Source: an uncultured Candidatus Berkelbacteria bacterium
Lineage (GTDB): Bacteria; Patescibacteriota; UBA1384; CAJBMM01
DNA length: 45,416 nucleotides
Direction: 5' to 3'
Assembly (NCBI GenBank): GCA_903954185.1
Contig: CAJBMM010000039.1
Span: 1 to 45,416, forward strand
Of this stretch, positions 12,706-29,775 are shown piece by piece. The notes under the pieces were generated by a model. It was not told the DNA's origin. It did not search any database and worked only from the letters and a program-made list of their open reading frames with translations. How positions within the stretch are numbered: position 1 is the first letter of the stretch; every line of letters starts with the position of its first letter. The position numbers were made by a program, and so were the translations under genes.

Positions 12706-13680
12706 GTGATTGAGCTGTACGAGCGCACAATTCGGTTCCAAACGATCAAAGAGTTAGTAAGACTACTGGAGCTAGGCAGGCAGTATCGACTAGTTCTCTG
12801 GAACATGCTCCACAGCCGTGATGATGATTATTACAGTAACTGGCACATTCCCAAGAGGGATGGTGGTGAACGGACAATTCAATCGCCAACACAAGAGCTG
12901 CGCGTTGTTCAAAGGGAAATCCTTCGTCACATCCTAGATGTGCTACCGGTTTCCCCTTATGCGCACGGGTATGTTATGGGGCGTAACATCGCTACTAATG
13001 CCTCCCATCACACTCACTCGCGCTCAATGATAACCGCGGATATTCAAGATGCGTTTGGCACCACTAGCTTTGCCGCAACTTGCCATCGATGCAAACCGTG
13101 GGAGGGAGTTTCAACTTCTGCAGAACTAGGCATCAGCGATGAAATGCTGCAGGTTGTAATAGAGTTTGTAGATTATGTAGACCCAGATACAAACAGTAGG
13201 TGGCTCCCTCAGGGGGCACCTACCTCGCCTGCGGCGTTCAACTATGCCATGCGCGAGGTAGACAGACGTCTTGGGCAGCTTGCTACGAATGTCAGCGGTG
13301 CTTATTCTCGGTATGCCGACAATCTGGCATTCTCGATGCCAAGCAGGGCGATAGATCCAAAGATTGTGCGGGCTTTCTTGCGTGACATTCGAGAACCTGG
13401 GTTTATTGTAAACCCCCAGAAGACTCACATCACCTACGACGGTAACCGCCCCGAAAAGCCACTGCGCCTGCCAGGTGTCAACATCATTGAAGGTGATATA
13501 GTTCTTCCGCCGAGTACCGTTCGATTACTGCGAAGCAAGCTGTATCACGCGGGCCAATGTGGAAACTACGAGGTGCGGCACGGGATAGAGGGCTACGCCT
13601 TGCACATCTACGGCGAACTCCCATCTCAATTGCGTGGAATATTCAAGAAGGGCGCGTTACACGCGTCCCTATGCCCCTAA
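12706..13680 (+). CDS. Retron-like reverse transcriptase with YADN active site
   Basis: About 320 residues with a complete RT fold: IPKRDGGERTIQSP (48-61), LRVVQREIL, AHGYVMGRNIATNASHH with the retron-type NAxxH (Asn98-His102), DIQDAF with Asp112, LPQGAPTSP (167-175), YADN (203-206), and LPGVNI (255-260) where retron RTs have VTG. The fourth residue of the YxDD box is Asn in place of Asp, unusual and possibly impairing catalysis. The start is unclear: GGGAGG overlaps GTG 12,706, so ATT 12,709 or CTG 12,715 may be used. No effector gene is fused or clearly adjacent. Composition differs from the flanking host genes, and a stem-loop closes the unit. Confidence 0.85.
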   Translation: MIELYERTIRFQTIKELVRLLELGRQYRLVLWNMLHSRDDDYYSNWHIPKRDGGERTIQSPTQELRVVQREILRHILDVLPVSPYAHGYVMGRNIATNASHHTHSRSMITADIQDAFGTTSFAATCHRCKPWEGVSTSAELGISDEMLQVVIEFVDYVDPDTNSRWLPQGAPTSPAAFNYAMREVDRRLGQLATNVSGAYSRYADNLAFSMPSRAIDPKIVRAFLRDIREPGFIVNPQKTHITYDGNRPEKPLRLPGVNIIEGDIVLPPSTVRLLRSKLYHAGQCGNYEVRHGIEGYALHIYGELPSQLRGIFKKGALHASLCP

Positions 13681-16423: not shown

Positions 16424-17146
16424 ATGTTTGCCAAAACCCATTTACATAGTGTCCAAGTTAGGGACAAGAATAATAATTGGGTTCCCCGCCAGGAACCAGC
16501 CATCGTTGATAACCTTTTTAATGAGCAGACTTTTTATCCGGCATTTACTAAGGATATACTGGCTGCCAAACGCGAGGTTATTATTTACAGCCCGTTTGTC
16601 TCCAAGTACCGAGCCGATACCTTTAACGGGATACTGTATAAGCTTAAAAGTAGCAATGTCGAAGTCTTTATCTTCACTCGCCCGATTCAAGAACAAGATG
16701 TAGGATTGCGCAAACAAGCCGAAGCGGTACTAAGTCATTATGAAGAGTTGGGCGCGAATATTTATTATTTGCAAGGTTCAATTCATGAGAAGGTAGCCAT
16801 TATCGACCGTGAGATTCTTTGGGAAGGGAGCCTGAATATTCTTTCGCAAAGAACTAGCCGAGAGATAATGCGGCGCACAGCCGATGAAAGCTTGGCATTG
16901 CAGATGGTACGGTATCTGGGTTTAAGCCGGATGCTGGCGGAAGGGTACCGGCAGAAGTACGAGAAATTATATAGAGAATTAATGGAAGGGGTGGGAAAAA
17001 GACGCCTGTTTAGTTTGAAGCCAAATATACTAGGAATAGTGGCTGTGGTAGCCATTTGGTGGATATTGGTCACCACATCGGGTATGATACCTTTTAGAAG
17101 TGCCGAAACGATTTTGAGTATGATAAGGCTATTCACCAATCACTAG
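16424..17146 (+). CDS. Membrane-anchored phospholipase D-like protein
   Basis: A 240-residue protein with one PLDc_2-type HKD motif (His121, Lys123, Asp128, Gly135-Ser136, Asn138 in IHEKVAIIDREILWEGSLNI). A PLD-type N-terminal half carries YSPFVSKYRADTFNGIL, and a C-terminal membrane helix (GIVAVVAIWWILVTTSGMI, about 204-222) anchors it. With only one HKD motif it should dimerise, as Nuc-type nucleases do. TAAGGAGG precedes the ATG. It is probably in an operon with the next gene (8-bp gap). A nuclease or lipid hydrolase held at the membrane, possibly defence cargo, is inference. Confidence 0.8.
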   Translation: MFAKTHLHSVQVRDKNNNWVPRQEPAIVDNLFNEQTFYPAFTKDILAAKREVIIYSPFVSKYRADTFNGILYKLKSSNVEVFIFTRPIQEQDVGLRKQAEAVLSHYEELGANIYYLQGSIHEKVAIIDREILWEGSLNILSQRTSREIMRRTADESLALQMVRYLGLSRMLAEGYRQKYEKLYRELMEGVGKRRLFSLKPNILGIVAVVAIWWILVTTSGMIPFRSAETILSMIRLFTNH

Positions 17147-17154
17147 GAGTTTTA

Positions 17155-17814
17155 ATGGATAATACACATAATCACAAGCCGGATCCGAAAAGTATAACAG
17201 CTTCTCAAGAAGAAATTGATCTTGTTCTAAAAGTTGTTGAGGATAAGTACGATACGGTTCTACCTAATGGGGAAGCTGCCAAACTAGTAAGCCTCATTAA
17301 AGAGTTTAGACAACGGCAATATGAGAGCAGTAAGGGAACGACCGCTCGGCGTTTTGTCGATGAAGCTGCCGCTGATTTAAAAGTGATTATTCAGCAAATT
17401 CCGGATCTTGATTCAGATGAGGGTACGTCACAAGAAGACGCTAGTGTTCCAATTGAAATTGAACCATTTCGCGAGATGCAGCGATTGGTAAATGAGATGC
17501 GTGGCTTAATTGTCGAATCTCGCCATGCTTCGCCTGAAAAGCAGGTTATGGAGAAACTAGCGCGACTACTCAAAGAGCATTATGGGATTGAGTCAGATGA
17601 AGCACAGCTGGAACAAGCCATCCAAGTTCTCTCCATGAAGCTCTGGTATGAAGAAGGTTTGGATAAATCACTCGATAAATGTCTTGATGATCTGCTGGTA
17701 ATTACAGATAAGCGAAAACGAGGGGAAAGTTTTTCGGGCGTAGATCTCCATGATAAAGTTGCCCAAGCGATTGAAGCAACGGCGCGGAGTATTAAAATAA
17801 AGCCGTCTGCTTAG
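17155..17814 (+). CDS. Hypothetical helical protein, partner of the PLD gene
   Basis: A 219-residue charged protein predicted almost wholly helical, without membrane segments. It has an N-terminal polar tail (MDNTHNHKPDPKSITASQEE), a middle acidic linker (DLDSDEGTSQEDASVPIEIEP) and a C-terminal helical part (LDKSLDKCLDDLLVITDKRKRG). I do not recognise the family. It starts 8 bp after the PLD gene and overlaps the 3' end of the convergent DUF2779 gene by 23 bp, so both convergent mRNAs would have complementary ends. Confidence 0.6.
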   Translation: MDNTHNHKPDPKSITASQEEIDLVLKVVEDKYDTVLPNGEAAKLVSLIKEFRQRQYESSKGTTARRFVDEAAADLKVIIQQIPDLDSDEGTSQEDASVPIEIEPFREMQRLVNEMRGLIVESRHASPEKQVMEKLARLLKEHYGIESDEAQLEQAIQVLSMKLWYEEGLDKSLDKCLDDLLVITDKRKRGESFSGVDLHDKVAQAIEATARSIKIKPSA

Positions 17815-19339
17815 TTTCAGCTTTATTTTTGGTCAATTCGCGTAGTTTTTCATAAATCCTTACCATCGCCAAAGTGTCGAGTTCGCAATAACGAAGTAAA
17901 TCTTGGAATAGTTTTTCCTTCTCGTCATCTGTGCCCATATCCGCAAGAACGGCTTGCATCCAAAGACGCTGGGCAGTTTGCCCTTCTTGGATAGTAAGTG
18001 TTTTATACGAAAGCTCTGGTACGACAACGGGTAATACTTTTTTAATTGAGGCACTACCCATAAACGCAGGGTCGACGAACATCCCTTCTGAAAATGGGGA
18101 CATTAGGTCAACTACACGATCGTTTAGATCAATAAAGAATTTCCTGTATTCCGGTAGTATCTCTGCCATTTCATTATTTCGGGTCGTCTCGAATTTTGCA
18201 TACCAAACTATTACGGAGCCTTTATTACCGATATCATTTTGAAGGGCAGAAGCAAGAGATTGGATTGGTAATTCGGGGGTTTTGTGAATATATTCGGTAT
18301 GTCGTAGATTTCCAGTTGGTGTGTCTAAAATATGTAAGGAGTACTGGCACGGTACTTGTTGGTAGGGGGTTGTTCTGTCGTAAGGCGGTACAACATCAGC
18401 ACATGTTTCATAATCTAGGAAATATAGTGGGTAGGTAAGTCCATCAAGAAATGTCTTAATGCCATCACGATCAATAATCTGATGCTGTTCTTTGACTGCG
18501 TGCACTTGGGCCAATTGTTTTTCAGTAAGTTTGACTGAATCTGGAATATCCTTCATCAATAAGATATTTTGGTCTTCAAGATCTCCGATGAGTTGGGCGC
18601 TCGGTATAGAAAGATCGTAAATGCTATATTCTGGAATTTCTTTTATGCAACGAAAAATTGGCAACCAGTCAGACATTGAGTTTAGATGGCAGTGGCGCGG
18701 CGAGATATCCGGCATTTCTTTGGAGCTAATAACTTCTAACGCACCTCTGATATTTTCATTGGTAACATCACATTTTTCTCTGACTGCTTCAGTTACATCC
18801 ACTATAACTAATAATTGTTTTGGATCGACATCACCAGAGCGAATATATGACTTATTAACATGAATAACCGATATCTTTTCAACCTCAAAACCAGAATTTT
18901 CAAGTACGTGTGCTTGAAAGGCTAAATCATATTCGTGTTCAGGTTTTACTTTTGTGCTAGATTTCACCTCATAGAGCCTCAACTTTTTTGGTGATGTAAA
19001 CTCAACTATGTCGGTAAGACAGGTTAAATTTCCTACGTCAAAACGTGCTTGAAAAAGCACCTTGTGACCATCCGATATCGCATTAACGGTACGTAATGAT
19101 AAAGTCAGGTATTCATCATATGAATTAAAGCCAATGCGAAAGCCCTCGGGGAATAACTTTTCAGCATAATCTTCAAGCCGATTGCCCGCGTCGAAAACTG
19201 CTTGGGTATTTGCATCAATTGGCGGAAGCGTTTCTTTAGCAAACTTTTTTAACCAGAGCCAAGCTCGGTGTTTAAGAAACAGTAAATATTCTGTTTTGGT
19301 TAAATTCATCGTAGAACTATTTTGAAAATTATTTTGCAT
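17792..19339 (-). CDS. DUF2779 protein: RecB/Cas4-like nuclease plus DnaQ-like domain
   Basis: Up to 515 residues; the domain begins at Met11 (MNLTKTEYLLFLKHRAWLWL). The N-terminal half has a PD-(D/E)XK core: Asp110 in LTDIVEF and Glu124-Val-Lys126 in LYEVKSS, as in Cas4/RecB nucleases. The C-terminal half is DEDD exonuclease-like: YFLDYETC (about 309-316), PYQQVPCQYSLHI, IVWYAKFE, and RYCELDTLAMVRIYEKL at the end. This combination defines DUF2779. The gene overlaps the upstream reverse transcriptase by 11 bp, so the nuclease is likely its translationally coupled partner. The C-terminus overlaps the convergent gene at 17,155-17,814. Confidence 0.8.
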   Translation of the reverse strand: MQNNFQNSSTMNLTKTEYLLFLKHRAWLWLKKFAKETLPPIDANTQAVFDAGNRLEDYAEKLFPEGFRIGFNSYDEYLTLSLRTVNAISDGHKVLFQARFDVGNLTCLTDIVEFTSPKKLRLYEVKSSTKVKPEHEYDLAFQAHVLENSGFEVEKISVIHVNKSYIRSGDVDPKQLLVIVDVTEAVREKCDVTNENIRGALEVISSKEMPDISPRHCHLNSMSDWLPIFRCIKEIPEYSIYDLSIPSAQLIGDLEDQNILLMKDIPDSVKLTEKQLAQVHAVKEQHQIIDRDGIKTFLDGLTYPLYFLDYETCADVVPPYDRTTPYQQVPCQYSLHILDTPTGNLRHTEYIHKTPELPIQSLASALQNDIGNKGSVIVWYAKFETTRNNEMAEILPEYRKFFIDLNDRVVDLMSPFSEGMFVDPAFMGSASIKKVLPVVVPELSYKTLTIQEGQTAQRLWMQAVLADMGTDDEKEKLFQDLLRYCELDTLAMVRIYEKLRELTKNKAETKQTALF

Positions 19340-20342
19340 GATTATCCAAGTTGCCCTGTTGACTAAATGGAGAAGTCAAAAATTGTTGTGAAGCAGCCTC
19401 TTCATATTTCTTCAACCGTTTTACATATCCCGGATGATATTGTCTGATATATTCGGTTTTGCCTTTAAGTCGCGAGAGTGAAACACTATGGTCGCCGCTT
19501 GCCGCACGCAACCATTGGCCTCTGACAAACTCTCTCTTGTTGATGTGTACCGTTGGTTGCAATCCAATCGTTAGCCCAACTACTTCACTGTTATTTCCGT
19601 TTTGATCTAATGCGCCGAACCCACCTCTTTTTTGTACCGTTGTTTTTTCATCGCTGACTCTCAAACCAGCTTTTATAAATAGTAGGCGTATTTTGGGGAT
19701 ACATGAATATACAGCACTTTTCGGTCCAGAGATAACAAAGTCATCTACCCAGGAACTAACGATAAGATCATGTGACTCACAATATTGATCTATTGAATTA
19801 AACGCCGGTAATAGGACGCAATTACAAATAGCGGTGCTACATGGTGCGCCTTGAGGTAATCTATTATCAATGGATAATAGATTACAGATATAATCTAGAT
19901 TAGAGCTAGAAACCTGAGTATTTAGAGCCTTGTATAACATTTTTCGAATCATATTCGGTGAAATAGAATCAAAACAACCCTTTATATCCATCTTTAAGAC
20001 TGCCTCTTTATTGCAATGAATCTTTGTCATCTTTTTCGTGGTAGATCCCGGTCTTCCACCCATCATGCGTATGGGTAATTGTGCCTGAAGTTCAGCGATT
20101 ACAGTTTTAGCTAACCTGTCGTGGACATAACGCATTCTACCCGTCGGGACCCAGCCTTTTCGTGGATTTTTTGGAGTTTCGTTCCAGCGTATATTTTGGA
20201 TGACCTTCTCTTTAAAATATTTATCCTTGTTAGAAATTAATTCTAAAAGCTGTTCTTCATTATCAAGCCCCAATAGTCCGAGTAGCTCATTTGTTGTATG
20301 AAGTTTATAGCGAGTATTTAACCTATAAGTCATTCTTTGCAC
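19329..20342 (-). CDS. Reverse transcriptase in an XRE-RT-DUF2779 operon
   Basis: A 337-residue RT. Core motifs: VLKMDIKGCFDSISP (Asp119), NRLPQGAPCSTAICN (162-165 LPQG), WVDDFVIS (Asp200 and Asp201, an intact catalytic pair), GLRVSDEKTTVQ and GLTIG. It has neither a group II maturase nor an endonuclease domain, and the NAxxH retron motif is replaced by KKMTKIH, so it is not a typical retron RT; it fits the broad unassigned or defence-associated RT class. The frame overlaps the XRE gene by 20 bp upstream and the nuclease gene by 11 bp downstream. MTYRLNT at Met4 may be the true start. Confidence 0.88.
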   Translation of the reverse strand: MQRMTYRLNTRYKLHTTNELLGLLGLDNEEQLLELISNKDKYFKEKVIQNIRWNETPKNPRKGWVPTGRMRYVHDRLAKTVIAELQAQLPIRMMGGRPGSTTKKMTKIHCNKEAVLKMDIKGCFDSISPNMIRKMLYKALNTQVSSSNLDYICNLLSIDNRLPQGAPCSTAICNCVLLPAFNSIDQYCESHDLIVSSWVDDFVISGPKSAVYSCIPKIRLLFIKAGLRVSDEKTTVQKRGGFGALDQNGNNSEVVGLTIGLQPTVHINKREFVRGQWLRAASGDHSVSLSRLKGKTEYIRQYHPGYVKRLKKYEEAASQQFLTSPFSQQGNLDNHAK

Positions 20343-20643
20343 TTTCTAATAGTTTGAGTAAGTTTAGGCTCAGTTCATCAACATTGTTTACGGGTAATCT
20401 CTTGAGGTCTTCCTCTTCACTTGCTAATAGCGCGATAAGATAAAATGGCACACTAAAGCTGCTTGAGATTTTCTCAAGAATTTGGGTAGAGGGGATTCTT
20501 CCAGCATCTTTTGCTGCATCCTTTTTATCAGATGCTTCAATTCGTGAGACATAAGAAGCGTCCACACCTAGCACCTCGGCTAGTTCCTTTTGGGTAATAC
20601 CCTTAGCCGATCGGATTGTACGAAATGCCTTGGCGTAATTCAT
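20323..20643 (-). CDS. XRE-family regulator of the RT operon
   Basis: A 106-residue protein with an N-terminal Cro/CI HTH (FRTIRSAKGITQKELAEVLGVDASYVSRIEAS) and a helical C-terminal tail (LPVNNVDELSLNLLKLLESAK). It is the first gene of an overlapping trio. Its start codon lies inside one arm of an inverted repeat, TTTTCTCGA (20,643-20,651) and TCGAGAAAA (20,679-20,687). The same TTTCTCG core occurs at 20,922-20,928 and, as a full palindrome, at 21,162-21,176. Autoregulation through these sites is likely; a hairpin covering the start codon is the alternative. Confidence 0.85.
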   Translation of the reverse strand: MNYAKAFRTIRSAKGITQKELAEVLGVDASYVSRIEASDKKDAAKDAGRIPSTQILEKISSSFSVPFYLIALLASEEEDLKRLPVNNVDELSLNLLKLLESAKNDL

Positions 20644-20699: not shown

Positions 20700-20909
20700 T
20701 TACTTTCGATCGTCTTTCTGATTTTCAGTCAGTGATCTGCACAACTCGTTGACGGACTCGAATAGCTTATCGTAGTCACCGTCCCAGGTTGCCATTTCGA
20801 TCTGCTGAAGCAGTCGGTTGATGTCCGGTTGAACCGAACCACAGGCAAGCATTAAGCGCCGAATTCGGCGTAGCAATGCTTTTTTAATAAGCAGAGATGG
20901 ATTATCCAT
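20700..20909 (-). CDS. Small helical protein upstream of the RT operon
   Basis: A 69-residue protein from ATG 20,909, which follows a good GGAGG (20,915-20,919); an upstream in-frame TTG is less likely. It is basic and helical (LLIKKALLRRIRRLMLACGS, then INRLLQQIEMATWDGDYDKLFESVNELC). Family unknown. It lies between the structured 20,920-21,171 region and the XRE gene, all in the same orientation, so it may be a component or regulator of the RT system. Confidence 0.6.
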   Translation of the reverse strand: MDNPSLLIKKALLRRIRRLMLACGSVQPDINRLLQQIEMATWDGDYDKLFESVNELCRSLTENQKDDRK

Positions 20910-21426
20910 CTTTACCTCCAATTTCTCGGCCGCCAGGCGATATGCCTGGTTTGATTAATAAAATTTGGGGCCGAGCGTGCAGCAACCCCTTGTATTGCCT
21001 GTGGCTATTTAACCTTTTCTCAGCGTGATTTTGTAGCAGAGAAAGAAACGCCTAGTCTACTTATGTAACCAAATTCGAAACTTACCTGTAATGATGTAAA
21101 TCATTTAGCTATTCAGCCTTTAGGTATTTAAACGCGAACCTGGCCCGGAATAAGTGGAAGACCGAGAAATTCTCGGCCAATTGTGGTTGCTTCCGCAACC
21201 TGCCGCGAATGCGGCTATGGGGTAGTGCTTGTTGGACTGCTTATTAAGGAACCCTCAAAACGAGGTACATAATAATGGTATATCAAAAATGACTGGCAGT
21301 CAAGTGCCAAGACGACGATCCAAATAGAAACCGCGTAGGCAATTTAATAAGTTACATAGCCTGGAATGTGCAGCTTATAGGGTTTAGCCAATTCATGACC
21401 AAAGATATTACTGCGCCGTGGATAAA
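20910..21426 (-). ncRNA. Structured 500-nt region, candidate non-coding RNA of the RT system
   Basis: No gene over about 500 bp. AATTTCTCGG (20,920-20,929) and CCGAGAAATT (21,162-21,171) are a perfect inverted pair about 230 nt apart, resembling retron a1/a2 ends, although the same core could be an XRE operator. Between them are hairpins CCAGGC/GCCTGG (20,933-20,949), CTCGGCC/GGCCGAG (20,925, 20,969), TTTCTC/GAGAAA (21,016-21,044) and nested TACCT/AGGTA with AATGA/TCATT (21,083-21,126). Beyond are CCGAGAAATTCTCGG (21,162-21,176), GGTTGC/GCAACC (21,185-21,200) and GCCGC/GCGGC (21,202-21,215). It lies upstream of the RT operon on the same strand. Confidence 0.45.
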
Positions 21427-22185
21427 TCATATTAATTCTCCCTCCCCCTTTAGGTAGGCCTCAATCTCGATTGCAGGCACAGTACCAACTTTCTGTAGCT
21501 CAGCGACAAGATTCATGAAGAAATTAACCAAGCTGTTATCGTCAGTTTTATTAACTATCTCATACGGCCTGGAGTTTTGATCCCAAGGATGTAATTTGGG
21601 GAGACTAAAGTAGGTTTTTCCCGCCAATGAACAGCCAAAGTTTAATACTCGCCCATCACCTGCATTTGCTAATTTTTCCTGCACCTCCAGAGAAAGAGTT
21701 CCGTCCACAGTTAAAATGCCTGCGAGTATGCGGGCTGGCTTTTTGGGGTCAAAGACACCTCCCGCGTGGGGGATGGGAGCGCTAGTTCTACTTAGCTTGC
21801 GGACAGATGCCGCCTTTTTCTGAGCATACTCAATATTGGCTTTATTCAGCTCCTGTTTAACCTCAATCACAGCATAAACGGATTCAGCTGGAATATAAGT
21901 AACGCCGTTTTGTCGTAGAATGAAAGGGGAATACTGTCGGTCAAAGATGACGATGTCAATTTGTTCGCTAATGTTACCGTTCGCATCCATTACAAAAGCA
22001 GAATCGGCACAATACCGCTTAGGTAAATAGGTAGATAACATCTCAGTCCATTCAAGCTCAGACGCCGTTCCCTTTGAGGTCGGGTGACTAATAATATTGC
22101 GATTAAAAGTAAGTTTCGCCTCCATTTGACTTTGTAGACCCCTAAAGATTTCCTTGGTATTAACTTTCTTCGACACTTTTACCAT
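21427..22185 (-). CDS. DUF6602 protein, nuclease-like
   Basis: A 252-residue soluble protein of the DUF6602 type. The conserved core is GTASELEWTEMLSTYLPKRY, GNISEQIDIVIFDRQYSPF (Asp77) and PAESVYAVIEVKQEL (Glu108-Val-Lys110), which has the D...ExK arrangement of PD-(D/E)XK nucleases; catalytic activity is inferred. ATG 22,185 is chosen for the GGAGG at 22,191-22,195; a GTG at 22,200 would start inside that site. It overlaps the end of the nucleotidyltransferase gene by 7 bp and is the last gene of the five-gene operon. Confidence 0.75.
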   Translation of the reverse strand: MVKVSKKVNTKEIFRGLQSQMEAKLTFNRNIISHPTSKGTASELEWTEMLSTYLPKRYCADSAFVMDANGNISEQIDIVIFDRQYSPFILRQNGVTYIPAESVYAVIEVKQELNKANIEYAQKKAASVRKLSRTSAPIPHAGGVFDPKKPARILAGILTVDGTLSLEVQEKLANAGDGRVLNFGCSLAGKTYFSLPKLHPWDQNSRPYEIVNKTDDNSLVNFFMNLVAELQKVGTVPAIEIEAYLKGEGELI

Positions 22186-22943
22186 ATGGCCTCCTCCCAA
22201 GTTCCTTGCAGGGTTTGCGTTGCAGTCGTTTTGATTACGAGCTTTTCTTGTTGGGTTAAATCATCAGATATATTGTTGGCGGAGTTTGAGGGATCTTTAA
22301 TAGTTCTGGTTATAAAGTCTGTGGAAAGATAATCCATAACCTTTTTGAAATTCCCTGAGGGATTGCTTGTTAGAGAATTACCCCTTAACGCCTCAATGAC
22401 CGAAAGCTCTAAGAAAAAGGAGGGAAAATCCATATTTCTTAACTTTCTCCAGATCTTGATTGCCCGAATGTCAGCAGTTCTTCCTGAAGTTGAGATGTGG
22501 CTAATATGCTCATCAATATTAGTTTTAGTCCAAGTTTGTGCTTTACGCTTCCAGAGGGAATGGTCGAACCCTAAAGCGTGATGTTTAACCCCTGGCACAA
22601 TATCCATCTTGAGCCCACAGTGATTAATGCCTAAAGAAACATTCTGTTCTCTGGTGGTATATCCGACACCGCTTAAACGATTTCGGAGGGTCGTATAAAC
22701 ATTTTCAAGAGTATTGCAGCTGCTGACTGAAGGATCTAGTGATATAAAAAGGTCCACATCTGTGGTGCCGGTAATGCCAGTTCCCTTTGCCAACGAGCCG
22801 GAGAGCTTCACTTCGTATTTATGACCATTTGCCCAAGCATAAACATGAGGAAGTAAACCTTGTATTTTTTGCGCCACATCACTAACAACAGGGGTGTGTT
22901 TGTTAACTATGTCCATTATGTATTTATCTGAGTCACTATTCAT
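22179..22943 (-). CDS. Nucleotidyltransferase (OAS/CD-NTase-like fold)
   Basis: A 254-residue class I nucleotidyltransferase. The active site is complete: GSLAKGT (49-55), DVD (Asp62, Asp64) and a third Asp in LKMDIVPG (Asp114). A helical C-terminal half follows, with IRAIKIWRKLRN and SFFLELSVIEAL typical of OAS/CCA-type enzymes. It could make a cyclic or linear nucleotide signal as in CBASS, or modify RNA or protein ends; no known CBASS effector is adjacent. It lies 6 bp downstream of the 125-residue gene and overlaps the DUF6602 gene. Confidence 0.8.
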   Translation of the reverse strand: MNSDSDKYIMDIVNKHTPVVSDVAQKIQGLLPHVYAWANGHKYEVKLSGSLAKGTGITGTTDVDLFISLDPSVSSCNTLENVYTTLRNRLSGVGYTTREQNVSLGINHCGLKMDIVPGVKHHALGFDHSLWKRKAQTWTKTNIDEHISHISTSGRTADIRAIKIWRKLRNMDFPSFFLELSVIEALRGNSLTSNPSGNFKKVMDYLSTDFITRTIKDPSNSANNISDDLTQQEKLVIKTTATQTLQGTWEEAIW

Positions 22944-22949
22944 ATCTTA

Positions 22950-23327
22950 TTATTTTGTCTCTTTATAACTTTCTATGTCCTCGGCTCTATAGTGTTTGTC
23001 AATCCGATATGTTTTCAAAACAGGATTATTGTTTATATATATCGAGATCTTTATTACTGGAATGTTACCTCTTTTATTTTTCCTATGTCTAACATACCAA
23101 TTGAATGCGGTATTTAGGATTGACACAATAAATGCAGATAATAAGTTGGCTTCAATACTGCCTTGATGAATGCTAAGCCATGCAATTATTTGTTCTGCCT
23201 GTATCCCACCACCAAATTCACCTTTAATATGTTCAAAACCTAAGTTTTGAAATTCTTTAGCTAATTCTGATTTAGCACCTTCCGAATAGCCGAATACGTC
23301 ATAAAAAGAATAGCTGTTAGGTTTCAT
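22950..23327 (-). CDS. Hypothetical protein with one hydrophobic helix
   Basis: A 125-residue protein of unknown function in the middle of the five-gene operon. The N-terminal part is mixed alpha/beta (FYDVFGYSEGAKSELAKEFQNLGFEHIKGEFGGG), the middle has a hydrophobic segment (ANLLSAFIVSILNTAFNWYV) followed by basic RHRKNKRG, and the end is a beta-rich tail (VIKISIYINNNPVLKTYRID). It may sit at the membrane. The start overlaps the methyltransferase stop by 4 bp (ATGA), so it is translationally coupled. Confidence 0.65.
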   Translation of the reverse strand: MKPNSYSFYDVFGYSEGAKSELAKEFQNLGFEHIKGEFGGGIQAEQIIAWLSIHQGSIEANLLSAFIVSILNTAFNWYVRHRKNKRGNIPVIKISIYINNNPVLKTYRIDKHYRAEDIESYKETK

Positions 23328-26300
23328 TTTGTTGACTTCTCAATTGTTTCAATTTCATCTGGAGACAAGTTATATAATTTGTAAATAATTTGATCGATTT
23401 GGCGCTCATAGTCACGCACTAGTTGTAACTTAGCCTCATTTGTTAAATAATCCTCAGATTTTGTGACCGCAAAAATATCATCTACAATTTCTATGATGTG
23501 TTGTTGCTCAGGTGATTCATCCAGTTTAATCGGTATCATTTTTAAGTTGACTATCTTAACCTCAGCAAATGCCCTGTCGTCTTCAGAGGTAAAGTTTTTA
23601 TGCCACCATGTGATTAATTTCGAATTCAGGATACCCAATATATATTTTAGATCAAATTTCGGATCAAATATTGAGTGTGTTGTATCCATGTGATAAATTC
23701 CTGAATTATCTAGGGTAGCAATGATTGAATCTCCTGTTTGTCTAACTAGGATTTTTGGGTGCTTACCTAGTAAAACTTCATTTGTGTTACTCCATAATTT
23801 AGACTTGTCAAACAATACGTATGTTTCAGTTATGATTGGGGCATATTTAATAATATCCCTTCCTCTTGCAACAGGTTTATAAGAGGAGCTCAGCGAGCAA
23901 TTCGATAAATATTTGTCGTTGTTGCCAGTTTTTATGCCGTTATACAACGACGCAATTTCATCTAAACTAGCTGATCCATCCGACAACTTTCTCATTAAAC
24001 TGTAAAGCACAGGGTCAAGATAAAATTTACTGTTCGGTGTTTTCTTGATTTCTGAGGTCAAAACTGCTTGATAATTAATTTCTGAAAACTGCGTATTATT
24101 TTTGATTACTGCCGTTTTTACCCCTTGCTCTTTGTTCGGATCACATCTTGATAATAAGAAGATACAATTCCCTCCGATAACAGCGGACTCAAATACGGCC
24201 CCCTTAATATCTAATAGTATATTCAGATCCGAATGATCCAGGATATATTTTCGTATTTTAGAGAAGTTTTTATTGTATAAAAATACATTCGGGACGATGA
24301 AGGTTAAATTTCCTTTTAAATCGAGAAGATCGAAAGAGCGCCTAATAAAAAAGGCAAATAAATTATTTTTGTATTCCTTAATTTCTGAATAAATGCCAGT
24401 CAAGATTGTTACCAATTCCTGCGATACAATTTGCCCCTTCCCTAAACTTAAGGTCAGATAAGGAGGGTTTGCAATAACAATGTCAAAACCTTCTTTGATA
24501 CCAAACATCCACTCCGGGTCAAACCAATCTGATGATTTATGACTAAATGGGTCCCAAGTTGTAAGCTTTGCGGTTAGATCGGCGTGACCTCGTAGATTAT
24601 CAGCAATAAGCTTCTGAAACATACGGTTTTGGGTCTGTACGAATTGAAGTTTCAAACTGTCCCGCTCTGCTCCGGATGCGTTGAAGAACATTTCCCTGAC
24701 TTCTCTTAACTCCTTAATACCCTCGTCATCCTCAAATAGTCCCATCTGGTTTACCGATTTACCGGTTGAAGGTAAACCAATCAATGTGTTTGCTGTGACA
24801 AATTTGAAGTCTAGGTTTGGCAGAGGCTCAATGCCACGGTTCTCGAGTGTTTCGTCAATTCGTTCATCTACAACAAGTGTTAAGAAGCATCTTAGGCGTG
24901 ATATCTCGGTAGCGATAGGTTGTATATCTACGCCGTAAATATTTTCACGGATTATGCCGAGCTTTCTAAGATAGTCGAAGTTCTTTTCCTGAAATTCGCG
25001 CTCTATCACCCTTCTTAATTCAATTGGGGTATTTTGAATCTGCTTTTTGAACCAAAGTTGGCCATGGGGATCAATTTGCTGGAGCATAAATACAATCTTT
25101 TGTAGCGCCCCAATTGGAAAGGCTCCGGATCCACAAGCAGGATCCAGGATTTTAACAGCACTTAGTGCATCTGCAATTTTGCCCCTATCATCATCAGAAA
25201 GTTGATTTAATCGGTCGTCTTCTAAGTCATAACTGATTAGAGGACGTAGTTTTTCCTCGTCAACGCTCGTTTTCTCTTTGAGGTAAAGGCACAAGCTCTC
25301 ATCAACCATATAGTCGACGATAACTCTGGGAGTGTAATAGCTTCCGGTGCTTTTTCTGGCTGACTCTCCAGTTTCGGGGTTAATCTCGGCAAGTAAGTTT
25401 TCAAATATACGCCCTAGCATCTCTGGGTCAATCGAAAGCTCTTCATCAAAGCTCGTATTCTCGTCGATTGTGAAATTGTAAGTTTCAAGTACTTCAAATA
25501 GGTCTTTGAACCACCGGTCGGGAATGATCAGAGTATTATGAAATCTTGATTGAAGGTCACCATTTAACAGCTTGTAATAGTCATCCTCTTGAGGGGAAAA
25601 TAAACCACCGTTTAGGTATGGAATTGTAGAGAATGGCTCAATAGCAAATTCGTCCCTTCTAGATTTAATGGGTTTATTTAAGATCTCAAAAAAGATTGGC
25701 TCAAGAATTTTGTGATAATAATCTTGGTGTTCATCAGTTGCTTTGTCCGAAAGTAACTCTTTTGGCATGAGTGCAAGGCCAAATTCACTTCGCTTCTCTC
25801 TCAGAAACCAGCAGAAAATAATTCTACCAATTAACCTAACCGCAAATTCAAGGCTTGTTTGGCTTGTGTCGACAACACTAGGAAGGTGAAGCAAAGCCTC
25901 GTGGGTTGTTTTAGTTTTACCTTTAGTTGTTGTCCCACCAACAAGTTTTGTAAATGCGCCAGATATCTCTTGATAAAACTCTTTATTAACAACCTCAACA
26001 GAGAACCGACTTTTTAAATCTGTAAAGTCAAAAACTCTGCCCTTAGCGATAATAAATTTTTGCGGGGTTTTAACCTTTGCTTTTTGTCCTAAAACATAAG
26101 ATTGTCGCTTTGGATTTGAAAGCTTAGTAATTATTTTCCCATCGTCCCAAGTCGGAGTACTAGTTAAAAGAGAAAGACGCCACTGAGGCGAGTTTGGAGA
26201 ATAATAGGCAATTATGGCGTTTGGCGTGCCATAGTTTTTTAAGAGGGAGAAGCTTTCATTAGCAAGGCCGACTTTTCTTTTGGCCGGATCCGAATCAATC

Positions 26301-26473
26301 GCTATTGCATATAACCTTACACCTAAGTTAGATTCACCAAGGGTTTGAATTGCGTTGACTCCAGAAAAGCTATTTGGTACATCAACTTTTCGGATGTCTC
26401 TTCTAAAATCTGGGAGAAACTCAGCTGCCCAATCTAGAAATGATTCTTGCTCAAAGTTTTCGGTGAGGTTCAT
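23324..26473 (-). CDS. Eco57I/TaqI-like DNA adenine methyltransferase
   Basis: A 1049-residue N6-adenine DNA methyltransferase. SAM motif I is DPACGSGAFPIGAL (about 441-454) and the catalytic motif IV is NPPY (about 666-669). An N-terminal region of about 350 residues contains GTPNAIIAYYSPNSPQWRLSLL. The C-terminal part, with YKPVARGRDI and THSIFDPKFDLKYILGILNSKL, is a TaqI/Eco57I-type target-recognition domain. The size matches Type IIG, PglX or DrmMI-type enzymes; I see no clear PD-(D/E)XK nuclease in it. It overlaps both neighbours by 4 bp. With the PLD-helicase it probably forms a restriction-modification-like defence unit. Confidence 0.88.
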   Translation of the reverse strand: MNLTENFEQESFLDWAAEFLPDFRRDIRKVDVPNSFSGVNAIQTLGESNLGVRLYAIAIDSDPAKRKVGLANESFSLLKNYGTPNAIIAYYSPNSPQWRLSLLTSTPTWDDGKIITKLSNPKRQSYVLGQKAKVKTPQKFIIAKGRVFDFTDLKSRFSVEVVNKEFYQEISGAFTKLVGGTTTKGKTKTTHEALLHLPSVVDTSQTSLEFAVRLIGRIIFCWFLREKRSEFGLALMPKELLSDKATDEHQDYYHKILEPIFFEILNKPIKSRRDEFAIEPFSTIPYLNGGLFSPQEDDYYKLLNGDLQSRFHNTLIIPDRWFKDLFEVLETYNFTIDENTSFDEELSIDPEMLGRIFENLLAEINPETGESARKSTGSYYTPRVIVDYMVDESLCLYLKEKTSVDEEKLRPLISYDLEDDRLNQLSDDDRGKIADALSAVKILDPACGSGAFPIGALQKIVFMLQQIDPHGQLWFKKQIQNTPIELRRVIEREFQEKNFDYLRKLGIIRENIYGVDIQPIATEISRLRCFLTLVVDERIDETLENRGIEPLPNLDFKFVTANTLIGLPSTGKSVNQMGLFEDDEGIKELREVREMFFNASGAERDSLKLQFVQTQNRMFQKLIADNLRGHADLTAKLTTWDPFSHKSSDWFDPEWMFGIKEGFDIVIANPPYLTLSLGKGQIVSQELVTILTGIYSEIKEYKNNLFAFFIRRSFDLLDLKGNLTFIVPNVFLYNKNFSKIRKYILDHSDLNILLDIKGAVFESAVIGGNCIFLLSRCDPNKEQGVKTAVIKNNTQFSEINYQAVLTSEIKKTPNSKFYLDPVLYSLMRKLSDGSASLDEIASLYNGIKTGNNDKYLSNCSLSSSYKPVARGRDIIKYAPIITETYVLFDKSKLWSNTNEVLLGKHPKILVRQTGDSIIATLDNSGIYHMDTTHSIFDPKFDLKYILGILNSKLITWWHKNFTSEDDRAFAEVKIVNLKMIPIKLDESPEQQHIIEIVDDIFAVTKSEDYLTNEAKLQLVRDYERQIDQIIYKLYNLSPDEIETIEKSTK

Positions 26474-29400
26474 ACATCAAGCTCCTCGGATAAGACAATT
26501 AGCTCAGACATACCCTCAAGTTGATCGACGCGCTTGAGACTCGTGGAAACAGACTGCTCAGAGGCAATCGCTTTCAGATCGTTGAAGGCTTGTTCTAGAT
26601 CGCCCAAATTAAGGCGGCTGATTTGCTTATATTGCCCTTCACTCAAGTCGTCGTATTCCTTAATAACCTTAGAAAGATCATTGGCGTAGTCTTTAGCGGG
26701 TGGATAGTTTTCAATCAAGATTTGCAGCGCTTCAAGTGCTTTGGCGCGGTTGCCGCCAACTTTTGGTAGTTTGTGTTTTTCAAAGAGTTTATCTCGGATT
26801 AATACAAACAGGTCATTGAAAGAGGGTTCAGGGTTTTGGCCTTCCTCACTTGGCTCGGCTCTAAATAACGGTAGTACCTGCTCAGCAGCAACAATCACTG
26901 GCTCAATCTCAATACTATCCTTTAAGGCAAAGATGGCATGATTACCCTTTTTACCAAAAGCAATTCCGCCTTGAATCGGTTGGTGCACACGCTTAACTCT
27001 GCTTCTTGGTCTGATCGCTAGAGCCTCTTTGATATCTTGATCGGAAGTTTGATCATATTTTTCTCGGTGATCTGCATCCCATGATTTATACTCTGCTTCG
27101 CTATTGGCTTTTTCATAATCATCCTTGAAGAAGCTACGAAGCTCTTCATCACTGGTTAGAGTCTTGGTATCGCTTCCTACTACCGCATTAATTAGGGTCA
27201 TTTTGAGCGTACTGATCTGTTGAATCTTTGTTTCAGCTTCTCCGATTGCGGTTGGGAAGAAGTTATTAACGTAAATCTTGTCGTAAACCTTTTTGTTAAT
27301 ACGGTTTATACGGCCAATACGCTGAATTACTCGAGTTGGGTTGAATGGAATATCGTAGTTGAATATCACACCGGCTCGATGCAGGTTATAACCTTCACTT
27401 AAAGCATCGGTAGCGATCAAAACGTCATAATCGTTTTTCTGGAACTGCTCTTTTAGTCCGGCGTCAAAGTTTAACCGCAATAGCTCTCGGTTAATTCGGC
27501 AGGCATCGCTTGAAGTATATTTAAATACTCGATTTAAGCCGGCCTTTTGTAAGGTGGATGCCAGGTATTCGACGGTGTCGGCATAGGCGGAGAACACGAC
27601 GATTTTACGATCCGGGTTTTCCTTTAGGAGCCGGTTAATATTATCGGCTAAACAGTTAAGCTTAGGATCAAATTGCGAAAACTGGGCGTTCGATTCAAAC
27701 CAACGATACTTTATAGTTTCTAATAGATTGGTATCTGCTTTTACATCTTCAACAAACTCTTCTTTTAGCCATTCTTTTTCAACAAACAACAACTTATATT
27801 TATTTTCATTTTCAATATTAAACTGTTCGTTGAATTCTCCTTCAACATTATCCCCGGCATCATCAATGAAGCTATCTGGATCGGGAATCTTACCTTTCTT
27901 AAGAATCGGAACTTTGCCTTGGCCTTCATACCAACTTAAGATTGACCGGTTTGAATCGATCATGTTTTGGAGTGTGATACGGAACGCCTCCTTTGAGCTC
28001 TCAAAACGCATAACCAATAACCGACGCATGAATGAGGCCAAGTTACTTTGGGCGGTCTGCAGATCCGTGTCATCAAGATAAGCGCTATATTTGGCCTGGA
28101 ATTCAGCGCGTTTTTCCTCCTTGATGTAGGTTGCTGGTTTGTACCGCGCTCCTTTAAGACCGTTTGTTTCGTTGGTAATTGTTTCTAAAGTGTCAAGGTA
28201 GAGTTCGAATAGATCACCCAATTCATATTCTAAGAGGTCTGGTCCGACTACTTCGGCAAAGGAAATTCCCTGTTTAACAAGATTGTTACGGTAGCGCGAA
28301 ATAGTTTGTAAATCAAGGCGTGAGCGACGAATAATCACTGGTTCAATCAAGCGTCTTAGCTCTTGGGCGATCTCTTTTGCTTCTTCGTTGACCTCTACAG
28401 TTGATAGTCTATTGCTACGTAATCCGGTTCGCAGCTTTTTATATCGGTCAATTAATTCGCGGAATCTCAGGGAGAGGTTATCTACCGAGCGAATTGTTGA
28501 CTGTCCAGGAGTCTGGAAAAGTTTAACCAAGGCAAACACATCCTTAGGATCATTATTAAACGGTGTGGCGGTTAAAATAACAATTTTGTTGTTTGGGTTA
28601 CTCCGTGCCATGGTGTGCAGCAAAGTATAATCATCCGTTAGTTCGTTACGATAGCGGTGCGCTTCGTCAATGACCAATAATACCGGTCCAGTTATCTGAT
28701 TAGTGCACCAGTTATGTGCATCTTCAATCTTACCGGAGCTAAATATTTGTGTGCCGGGCAGATGGAAGTGTGCCTGGTACTCTTGCCACTGGGGAATTAA
28801 ATGAGGAGGGCAAATGATCACAACATTCAAGCGTTCTGTTTGAGCGATATTGTAGGCAATCGCTGAGGCAATGATACTTTTCCCAAGTCCGACAACATCG
28901 GCGATGATAACTCCGCCATAACGATTGATCCGATCAATACCCATTCGGATAGCATCAAGCTGGTATTCGAGGTCAATAAACATGTCCTCGGTTATATCGC
29001 CAGGGGTTTTAATATCAGTGTCGTGATCTCTACCAAATAGCTCATGTAGCACCCGGATATATACTAGATAGGGACTAACTACACTGTTTATCCAAAGCTT
29101 TTTGATAACCTCTTTGAATTCCTGATTATTTTCTCCAGTAGCAACATCAATATTTTGTGAGTCATTCCACATTGACTCAAATTTGCTTACCGATTCATCA
29201 AAGGTAATTCTTTCGCGCGAGGATGTATTGAGTTCACCCTGATCGATCAGCCCATTGTAGGTGAAGTTGCTTGACCCAATAAATGTTACCCCAGGAGAAT
29301 CTCCACCTTGGTTTAGTTCAGATTTATTATGGACAATATACAGCTTTCCGTGTTGATCAGTGTTTGTGAGACGTATTTGAAGTGAGCCATCAAAGATTTT

Positions 29401-29775
29401 CTCTTCAAATATTTTATAGGCCTCTTGAGATTCCGGGCTATCAAATACCTGTGTTTCATTAAATAATTTGGAGAAGCCTTCGAGATATTTGTTCCGTTGC
29501 TCAGTTCTGGATGAATAATCTTCGCGTGGTTGGAAACGGTCAAGATCAACCGGTTTACCAGTCTTCTGTTGGAGAGCCACAATGCTCTGCACAGTATCAG
29601 GATCAATTTGTTTTCCGGCTAGTATTCTTACTTTTTTATCTTTGAGGTGGGTTGCTAATAATTCAAAACCAGAAAAATAGAAATATCCCACAGTTATATC
29701 GATACGATCAGCGGTGCTTAGCGCGTTTATGAGCGCTTGGAGCATTGTCTGGCTTTCGTTATCGATTAGGGGCAT
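26470..29775 (-). CDS. PLD-nuclease / SNF2-like SF2 helicase fusion
   Basis: 1101 residues. An N-terminal PLD domain carries HGK...GSSN (about His141 to Asn170) after DITVGYFYFSGFELL. The helicase follows: motif I DVVGLGKS (about 290-297), Q-rich IICPPHLIPQW, motif II DEAH (about 369-372), motif III TATPF, and motif VI QRIGRINR (about 820-827). The C-terminus is helical. This domain order occurs in restriction-type and DISARM/Mokosh-like defence proteins, where the helicase tracks DNA or RNA and the PLD domain cuts. First gene of the five-gene operon; the start ATG follows AAGGATA. Confidence 0.88.
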   Translation of the reverse strand: MPLIDNESQTMLQALINALSTADRIDITVGYFYFSGFELLATHLKDKKVRILAGKQIDPDTVQSIVALQQKTGKPVDLDRFQPREDYSSRTEQRNKYLEGFSKLFNETQVFDSPESQEAYKIFEEKIFDGSLQIRLTNTDQHGKLYIVHNKSELNQGGDSPGVTFIGSSNFTYNGLIDQGELNTSSRERITFDESVSKFESMWNDSQNIDVATGENNQEFKEVIKKLWINSVVSPYLVYIRVLHELFGRDHDTDIKTPGDITEDMFIDLEYQLDAIRMGIDRINRYGGVIIADVVGLGKSIIASAIAYNIAQTERLNVVIICPPHLIPQWQEYQAHFHLPGTQIFSSGKIEDAHNWCTNQITGPVLLVIDEAHRYRNELTDDYTLLHTMARSNPNNKIVILTATPFNNDPKDVFALVKLFQTPGQSTIRSVDNLSLRFRELIDRYKKLRTGLRSNRLSTVEVNEEAKEIAQELRRLIEPVIIRRSRLDLQTISRYRNNLVKQGISFAEVVGPDLLEYELGDLFELYLDTLETITNETNGLKGARYKPATYIKEEKRAEFQAKYSAYLDDTDLQTAQSNLASFMRRLLVMRFESSKEAFRITLQNMIDSNRSILSWYEGQGKVPILKKGKIPDPDSFIDDAGDNVEGEFNEQFNIENENKYKLLFVEKEWLKEEFVEDVKADTNLLETIKYRWFESNAQFSQFDPKLNCLADNINRLLKENPDRKIVVFSAYADTVEYLASTLQKAGLNRVFKYTSSDACRINRELLRLNFDAGLKEQFQKNDYDVLIATDALSEGYNLHRAGVIFNYDIPFNPTRVIQRIGRINRINKKVYDKIYVNNFFPTAIGEAETKIQQISTLKMTLINAVVGSDTKTLTSDEELRSFFKDDYEKANSEAEYKSWDADHREKYDQTSDQDIKEALAIRPRSRVKRVHQPIQGGIAFGKKGNHAIFALKDSIEIEPVIVAAEQVLPLFRAEPSEEGQNPEPSFNDLFVLIRDKLFEKHKLPKVGGNRAKALEALQILIENYPPAKDYANDLSKVIKEYDDLSEGQYKQISRLNLGDLEQAFNDLKAIASEQSVSTSLKRVDQLEGMSELIVLSEELDV

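Follow-up and report, generated by a model that had tools for sequence, protein, structure and literature searches.

The operon described here is, at a probability that we put at about one half, a diverged type VI-like retron that has gained a DUF2779 nuclease as its last gene, acting as an effector or as a processing enzyme. In favour of this reading, the regulator and the reverse transcriptase (RT) find their best models, HTH_VI and RT_VI, by wide margins, the gene layout is shared with type VI-like loci, and an unusually stable fold is predicted upstream, where 12 relatives have a structured RNA. Furthermore, the DUF2779 gene stands right behind an RT gene in two genomes, despite an identity of just 25% between their RTs, and its catalytic residues are intact. 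Against it, the pairing is rare (2 of ~38 type VI-like loci have it, and of the 30 best Patescibacteria loci with DUF2779 just 2 have an RT neighbour), the trees do not support a sister relation of either the two nucleases or the two RTs, the RT lacks the NAxxH motif and sits on a very long branch, and neither the small protein nor the non-coding RNA (ncRNA) has detected homologues.

Organization and setting of the operon

The window analysed, 45,416 nt in length, is the whole of contig C39 in the draft genome (1.0 Mb, 96.6% complete) of an uncultured Candidatus Berkelbacteria bacterium. In the direction of transcription, on the minus strand, a non-coding region of ~0.5 kb is followed by a small gene, an HTH gene, the RT gene and the DUF2779 gene (Table 1). 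The three larger open reading frames of the preliminary description were confirmed on that strand, as were its regulator, which matches Pfam HTH_3 (4.9e-10), and its RT with an intact VDD active site (WVDDF; RVT_1 match 7e-16). The overlaps of 20 bp and 11 bp that it gave between these genes hinge on the choice of start codon. The better RT start, the ATG at 20333, leaves an HTH/RT overlap of 11 nt (11-20 nt depending on the RT start), and the 11-nt overlap of RT and nuclease gives way to a gap of ~22 nt, since the homologues of the nuclease start at the methionine of MNLTK, here the ATG at 19306. The small protein and structured region that had been placed upstream are probably real parts of the locus.

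Table 1. Features of the operon and the region before it, in window coordinates.
Feature	Position	Strand	Basis
Candidate retron ncRNA region	20932..21426	-	Fold stability and position shared with relatives; would hold a1/msr/msd/a2
GC-rich hairpin CTCGGCC..GGCCGAG, directly 5' of the small gene's ribosome-binding site	20925..20975	-	Sequence and fold
Small protein gene, 69 aa	20700..20909	-	ATG start; GGAGG at 20915-20919, 5 nt before the ATG
XRE-family HTH regulator	20323..20643	-	PADLOC HTH_VI, Pfam HTH_3
Reverse transcriptase	19329..20333 (ATG; alternative GTG 20342)	-	PADLOC RT_VI, Pfam RVT_1, VDD site
DUF2779 nuclease, PD-(D/E)XK + DEDD	17792..19306 (alternative start 19339)	-	Pfam PF11074, PF01930, catalytic residues, AF2 model

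A conjugative-type element in the window is marked by a coupling protein, a TraG/VirB4-like ATPase and a serine recombinase, and the earlier view that the RT operon is of the defence type and belongs to the cargo side of such an element was supported. Upstream of the operon, the stretch 21427-23327 on the minus strand holds a CBASS-type pair, a NucC effector (21427-22200; 2.9e-88) and an oligonucleotide cyclase (22179-22943; 1.1e-77), together with a 125-aa gene directly upstream of this pair that has no match in Pfam or NCBIfam. A restriction-type module (23324-29775, minus strand) includes an Eco57I/TaqI-type methylase adjoining a PLD-domain-containing SNF2 helicase. On the plus strand, a PLD-like protein (16424-17146) has a C-terminal hydrophobic stretch and a match to PADLOC MkoC (2.4e-11), and a second retron-like RT (12706-13680), with a NAxxH motif (NASHH) and YADN, is best matched by the PADLOC model RT_XIII (172.9 bits). 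No obvious partner adjoins this second RT, the next gene being an HD-domain gene on the opposite strand. The same 1-Mb genome holds a third RT (G000:C13:15576-16079; RVT_1, 1.1e-13).

The reverse transcriptase and HTH protein resemble those of type VI retrons

The preliminary description had set the RT outside the known classes, a view that was not supported. Among the PADLOC models, RT_VI matches the RT best (137.3 bits, 1.5e-40; next RT_II-A, 94.8 bits) and HTH_VI the regulator (61.9 bits, 1.3e-17; next best 24.6 bits), and the layout is type VI-like. The PDB sequence matches of the RT are mostly retron RTs, and NCBIfam models of DRT and group II enzymes score far under their cut-offs (Drt2, 24.3 against 390; Drt3a, 20.9 against 200; group II, 39.3 against 300). 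In the RT tree, the window RT falls in the weakly supported half that contains the type VI RTs and joins one type VI clade (84/81), on a terminal branch of 2.91 that is the longest in the tree; its exact place is unsure. As a single query against the viral contigs, it found no relative.

The absence of NAxxH, already remarked upon in the preliminary description, is literally true (MTKIH stands at the aligned place, and 33 of 37 relatives carry NAxxH) but is compatible with a retron origin. Because this hallmark motif is absent, the RT is diverged and on a long, uncertain branch, and the small protein is unmatched, we call the RT type VI-like and not a proven member of the class; we read it as a very diverged member of the type VI-like retrons and not as an RT without a class. 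The missing motif and the very long branch also suggest that this RT may have changed its function. In the extreme case it would have left the retron way of working and, like the defence RTs of DRT type, would make some other kind of DNA, and a VVG in place of VTG is consistent with such a departure. Nevertheless, we consider this improbable, since RT_VI leads the second-best retron model by 43 bits, the two NCBIfam DRT models reach just 24.3 and 20.9 bits, and the type VI layout is intact.

Our scans of viral and genome contigs yielded ~38 distinct HTH-RT pairs, which share a layout of a small ORF, an HTH gene and an overlapping RT gene. For example, on the Pseudomonas plasmid pBYT1-1 an ORF of 79 aa precedes an HTH gene of 101 aa, which the RT gene overlaps, and relatives in Agrobacterium, Leisingera and Aeromonas are laid out like pBYT1-1. 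In the classes to which G130 (the second genome with the pairing) and G210 belong, searches for further type VI RTs gave weak matches only, beyond those known, and the A5 profile had no match in the viral contigs. The type VI retron, a class reportedly defined by Mestre et al. in 2020 and represented in PADLOC by RT_VI and HTH_VI, resembles the window in its HTH gene overlapping the RT gene and its small ORF before the HTH gene, and probably in a structured region upstream. The window differs in the loss of NAxxH, the strong divergence of its RT, a small protein without a hydrophobic tail and the extra DUF2779 gene.

A candidate structured RNA and a small gene precede the regulator

The 522-nt region at 20905-21426 forms a stable fold (z = -3.09), with none of 100 shuffles equally stable; Rfam had no match for the ncRNA region of the window, and no homologous RNA family was found. 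In 12 type VI-like loci of an alphaproteobacterial group, a structured RNA lies before the small ORF and shows compensatory change at 18 of 46 pairs, and a hairpin at the same place as the GC-rich hairpin of the window covaries in the relatives (alignment columns 322-341). Similarly, the region before the small ORF of G130 has a stable fold (z = -3.56). Within the window region, a 12-nt stretch at 21160-21171 is complementary to 20920-20931, which adjoins the small gene's ribosome-binding site on its 5' side (duplex z = -2.8). This complement is a possible switch, or antisense control, of the small gene, but we keep it as a mere lead because nothing equivalent was found in most of the type VI-like loci examined and the best long-range helix of the window region was matched in 4 of 60 shuffles.

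The comparison also draws attention to a part of these loci that is easily missed, the small ORF that precedes the HTH gene in nearly every one of them. It encodes 41-98 aa (for example L048:2315-2440, L052:2281-2520 and L135:3312-3566), ends in most cases in a hydrophobic stretch, and is a candidate toxin of the type VI class. The small protein of the window is equivalent to these by position alone, as its score against the profile of the others is not significant (0.7-1.7 bits) and its last 30 residues are without the hydrophobic stretch found in nearly all of them.

The DUF2779 protein is a predicted dual nuclease

A Cas4/RecB-like PD-(D/E)XK core combined with a DnaQ-like DEDD domain had been proposed for the last gene and was confirmed. 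The protein scores 124.8 bits against PF11074 (curated cut-off 23.3; E 3.1e-36) and matches Cas_Cas4 (PF01930) at 4.7e-5, and the catalytic columns of both the PD-(D/E)XK core (D110, E124, K126, Q142) and the DEDD domain (D309, E311, D411, Y484, D488) are invariant across its DUF2779 relatives. No solved structure matches it by sequence. An AlphaFold (AF2) model from a 9-sequence alignment reached a pLDDT of 90 (a model without an alignment reached 35 and was unusable), and in Foldseek comparisons with the PDB it came closest to Cas4 structures, with EXO5 and AdnAB lower. The window protein is thus like other DUF2779/UU173-family nucleases (PF11074) in its Cas4-like core, DEDD domain and full set of catalytic residues, whereas the others examined, G130 apart, do not adjoin an RT. 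Plasmid relatives keep cysteines, most of which are missing from the window and G130 nucleases in the alignment. PMC3985635 describes DUF2779 as a pairing of PD-(D/E)XK and DEDD domains, within RNase H-like family F.17, and predicts 3'-5' exonuclease activity for it.

That prediction would suit another division of labour, in which the small protein is the toxin and a complex of HTH protein and msDNA its brake, presumably as at other type VI loci, and the nuclease is no effector but matures or recycles the RNA-DNA product by 3'-5' trimming. Small genes before the HTH gene in nearly all type VI-like loci point towards such a toxin, and a lone DEDD exonuclease that overlaps one HTH-RT pair (L120, see below) points towards such a processor. 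We regard this arrangement as unlikely, given that the small protein of the window does not end in the hydrophobic stretch typical of nearly all the others and that most type VI-like loci do without an encoded exonuclease.

The pairing recurs in a second genome

In G130 (CAIMLA010000019.1, L101/L131), also of the Patescibacteria, the RT part of an HTH-RT fusion (L101:8403-9623) ends in TAA, a single nucleotide before the ATG of a DUF2779 gene. Both loci thus have a small ORF, HTH and RT, and then a same-strand DUF2779 gene; unlike the window, G130 has HTH and RT fused, keeps NAxxH (as NASLH) and has a small protein with a hydrophobic end. The nucleases are 49% identical and the RTs 25%. The RT tree places G130 among further loci from Patescibacteria (100/98) and apart from the window, and in the DUF2779 tree the two nucleases fall in one subclade but are not sisters, a joint clade not being rejected (AU p = 0.22). 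Among the closest DUF2779 relatives of the two, none stands beside an RT. The refuting test set in the preliminary description came out half against it: the RT belongs with a known class, but no account of DUF2779 as a partner of that class was found in the literature searched, and the linkage recurs in one other genome only.

Many Patescibacteria carry a DUF2779 gene (58 of 380 genomes), but it is rarely beside an RT, its usual neighbours being helicases, ATPases and other genes; none of eight DUF2779 loci in viral contigs has an RT either. Because the gene is so common and so rarely beside an RT, the pairing looks like the recruitment of a common nuclease and not like an ancient class. The simplest history would be two recruitments of this Patescibacteria nuclease, although a single ancient RT-DUF2779 pairing followed by fast change of the RT may also account for the two loci.

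The strongest rival to our reading is that a complete type VI-like retron lies beside an unrelated DUF2779 nuclease, the two being cargo of a defence island without a joint function. The frequency of DUF2779 genes beside other neighbours agrees with this, as does the window itself, where CBASS and restriction-type genes crowd into one island, and most type VI-like loci manage without DUF2779. It is a tenable account, but not the one that we would choose, since the nuclease gene follows on the same strand at a near-zero gap in two genomes with such dissimilar RTs. By our own rough estimate, from ~0.16 DUF2779 genes per genome of ~1000 genes and the four further HTH-RT loci of Patescibacteria in which the gene downstream can be seen, a second case would arise by chance with a probability below ~0.1%, or of 4-8% when defence-island genes alone are counted.

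Other nuclease genes near such RTs were also considered. An Acidobacteriaceae genome (L120:5649-7523) has an HTH_VI-like gene, an RT and an overlapping DEDD exonuclease (PF10108, 2.7e-18); its RT fits PADLOC RT_XIII better than RT_VI, and we treat it as a third, looser parallel to the RT-nuclease pairing. A PD-(D/E)XK gene behind the Patescibacteria RTs L102 and L135 was set aside as a partner, its family being present in 55 of 145 genomes including that of the window, and a nuclease fusion at L111 lies 1.5 kb upstream of the HTH gene, too far for a partner.

Proposed mode of action and significance

If the operon is a type VI-like retron with an added nuclease, the RT would copy part of the upstream ncRNA into msDNA, and the RT/msDNA complex, together with the HTH protein as a repressor or antitoxin-like partner, would silence a toxic output until a phage interfered with either the msDNA or the complex and so set it free. 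The proposal follows retron biology as exemplified by PMC12548924; the literature searched yielded no paper on how type VI retrons work. The genes, their class and layout, the intact catalytic residues and the second genome are observed. That msDNA is made, that the locus is toxic and acts in defence, and which part controls which are inferred by analogy. In most type VI-like loci, the sole candidate output would be the small protein with its hydrophobic tail. In the window, the nuclease would be the likeliest killer or nucleic-acid-degrading output, with msDNA processing as second choice, since its gene forms part of the operon and its catalytic sites are intact, whereas the small protein is without the usual tail. 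That DUF2779 replaced the small hydrophobic protein of type VI retrons as the killer, at least twice independently in Patescibacteria, is a more doubtful proposition, which we put forward tentatively.

Retrons with nuclease effectors resemble the window in coupling an RT gene to a nuclease or nuclease-like gene, as in a type I retron with HNH among our loci (L050). To our knowledge, the nuclease folds of type I/HNH retrons, Retron-Eco2 and Retron-Eco8 are unrelated to DUF2779, and we know of no XRE regulator of the window kind in them. Retron-Eco2 is a nuclease-effector retron with Toprim (PMC12405507) and Retron-Eco8 cleaves DNA (PMC12887533). As the preliminary description had supposed, no earlier description of DUF2779 as a retron partner was found in the literature that our search covered, where six papers name DUF2779 and, to judge from titles, abstracts and selected passages, none links it to retrons; the class-defining paper lay outside that search, so a prior mention is possible.

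In summary, the core of the locus is of a known kind, a type VI-like retron, and the new part is the DUF2779 pairing, with its one recurrence in Patescibacteria. The type VI class has no obvious enzyme effector, and a nuclease-bearing variant in genomes of ~1 Mb would offer it a concrete candidate.
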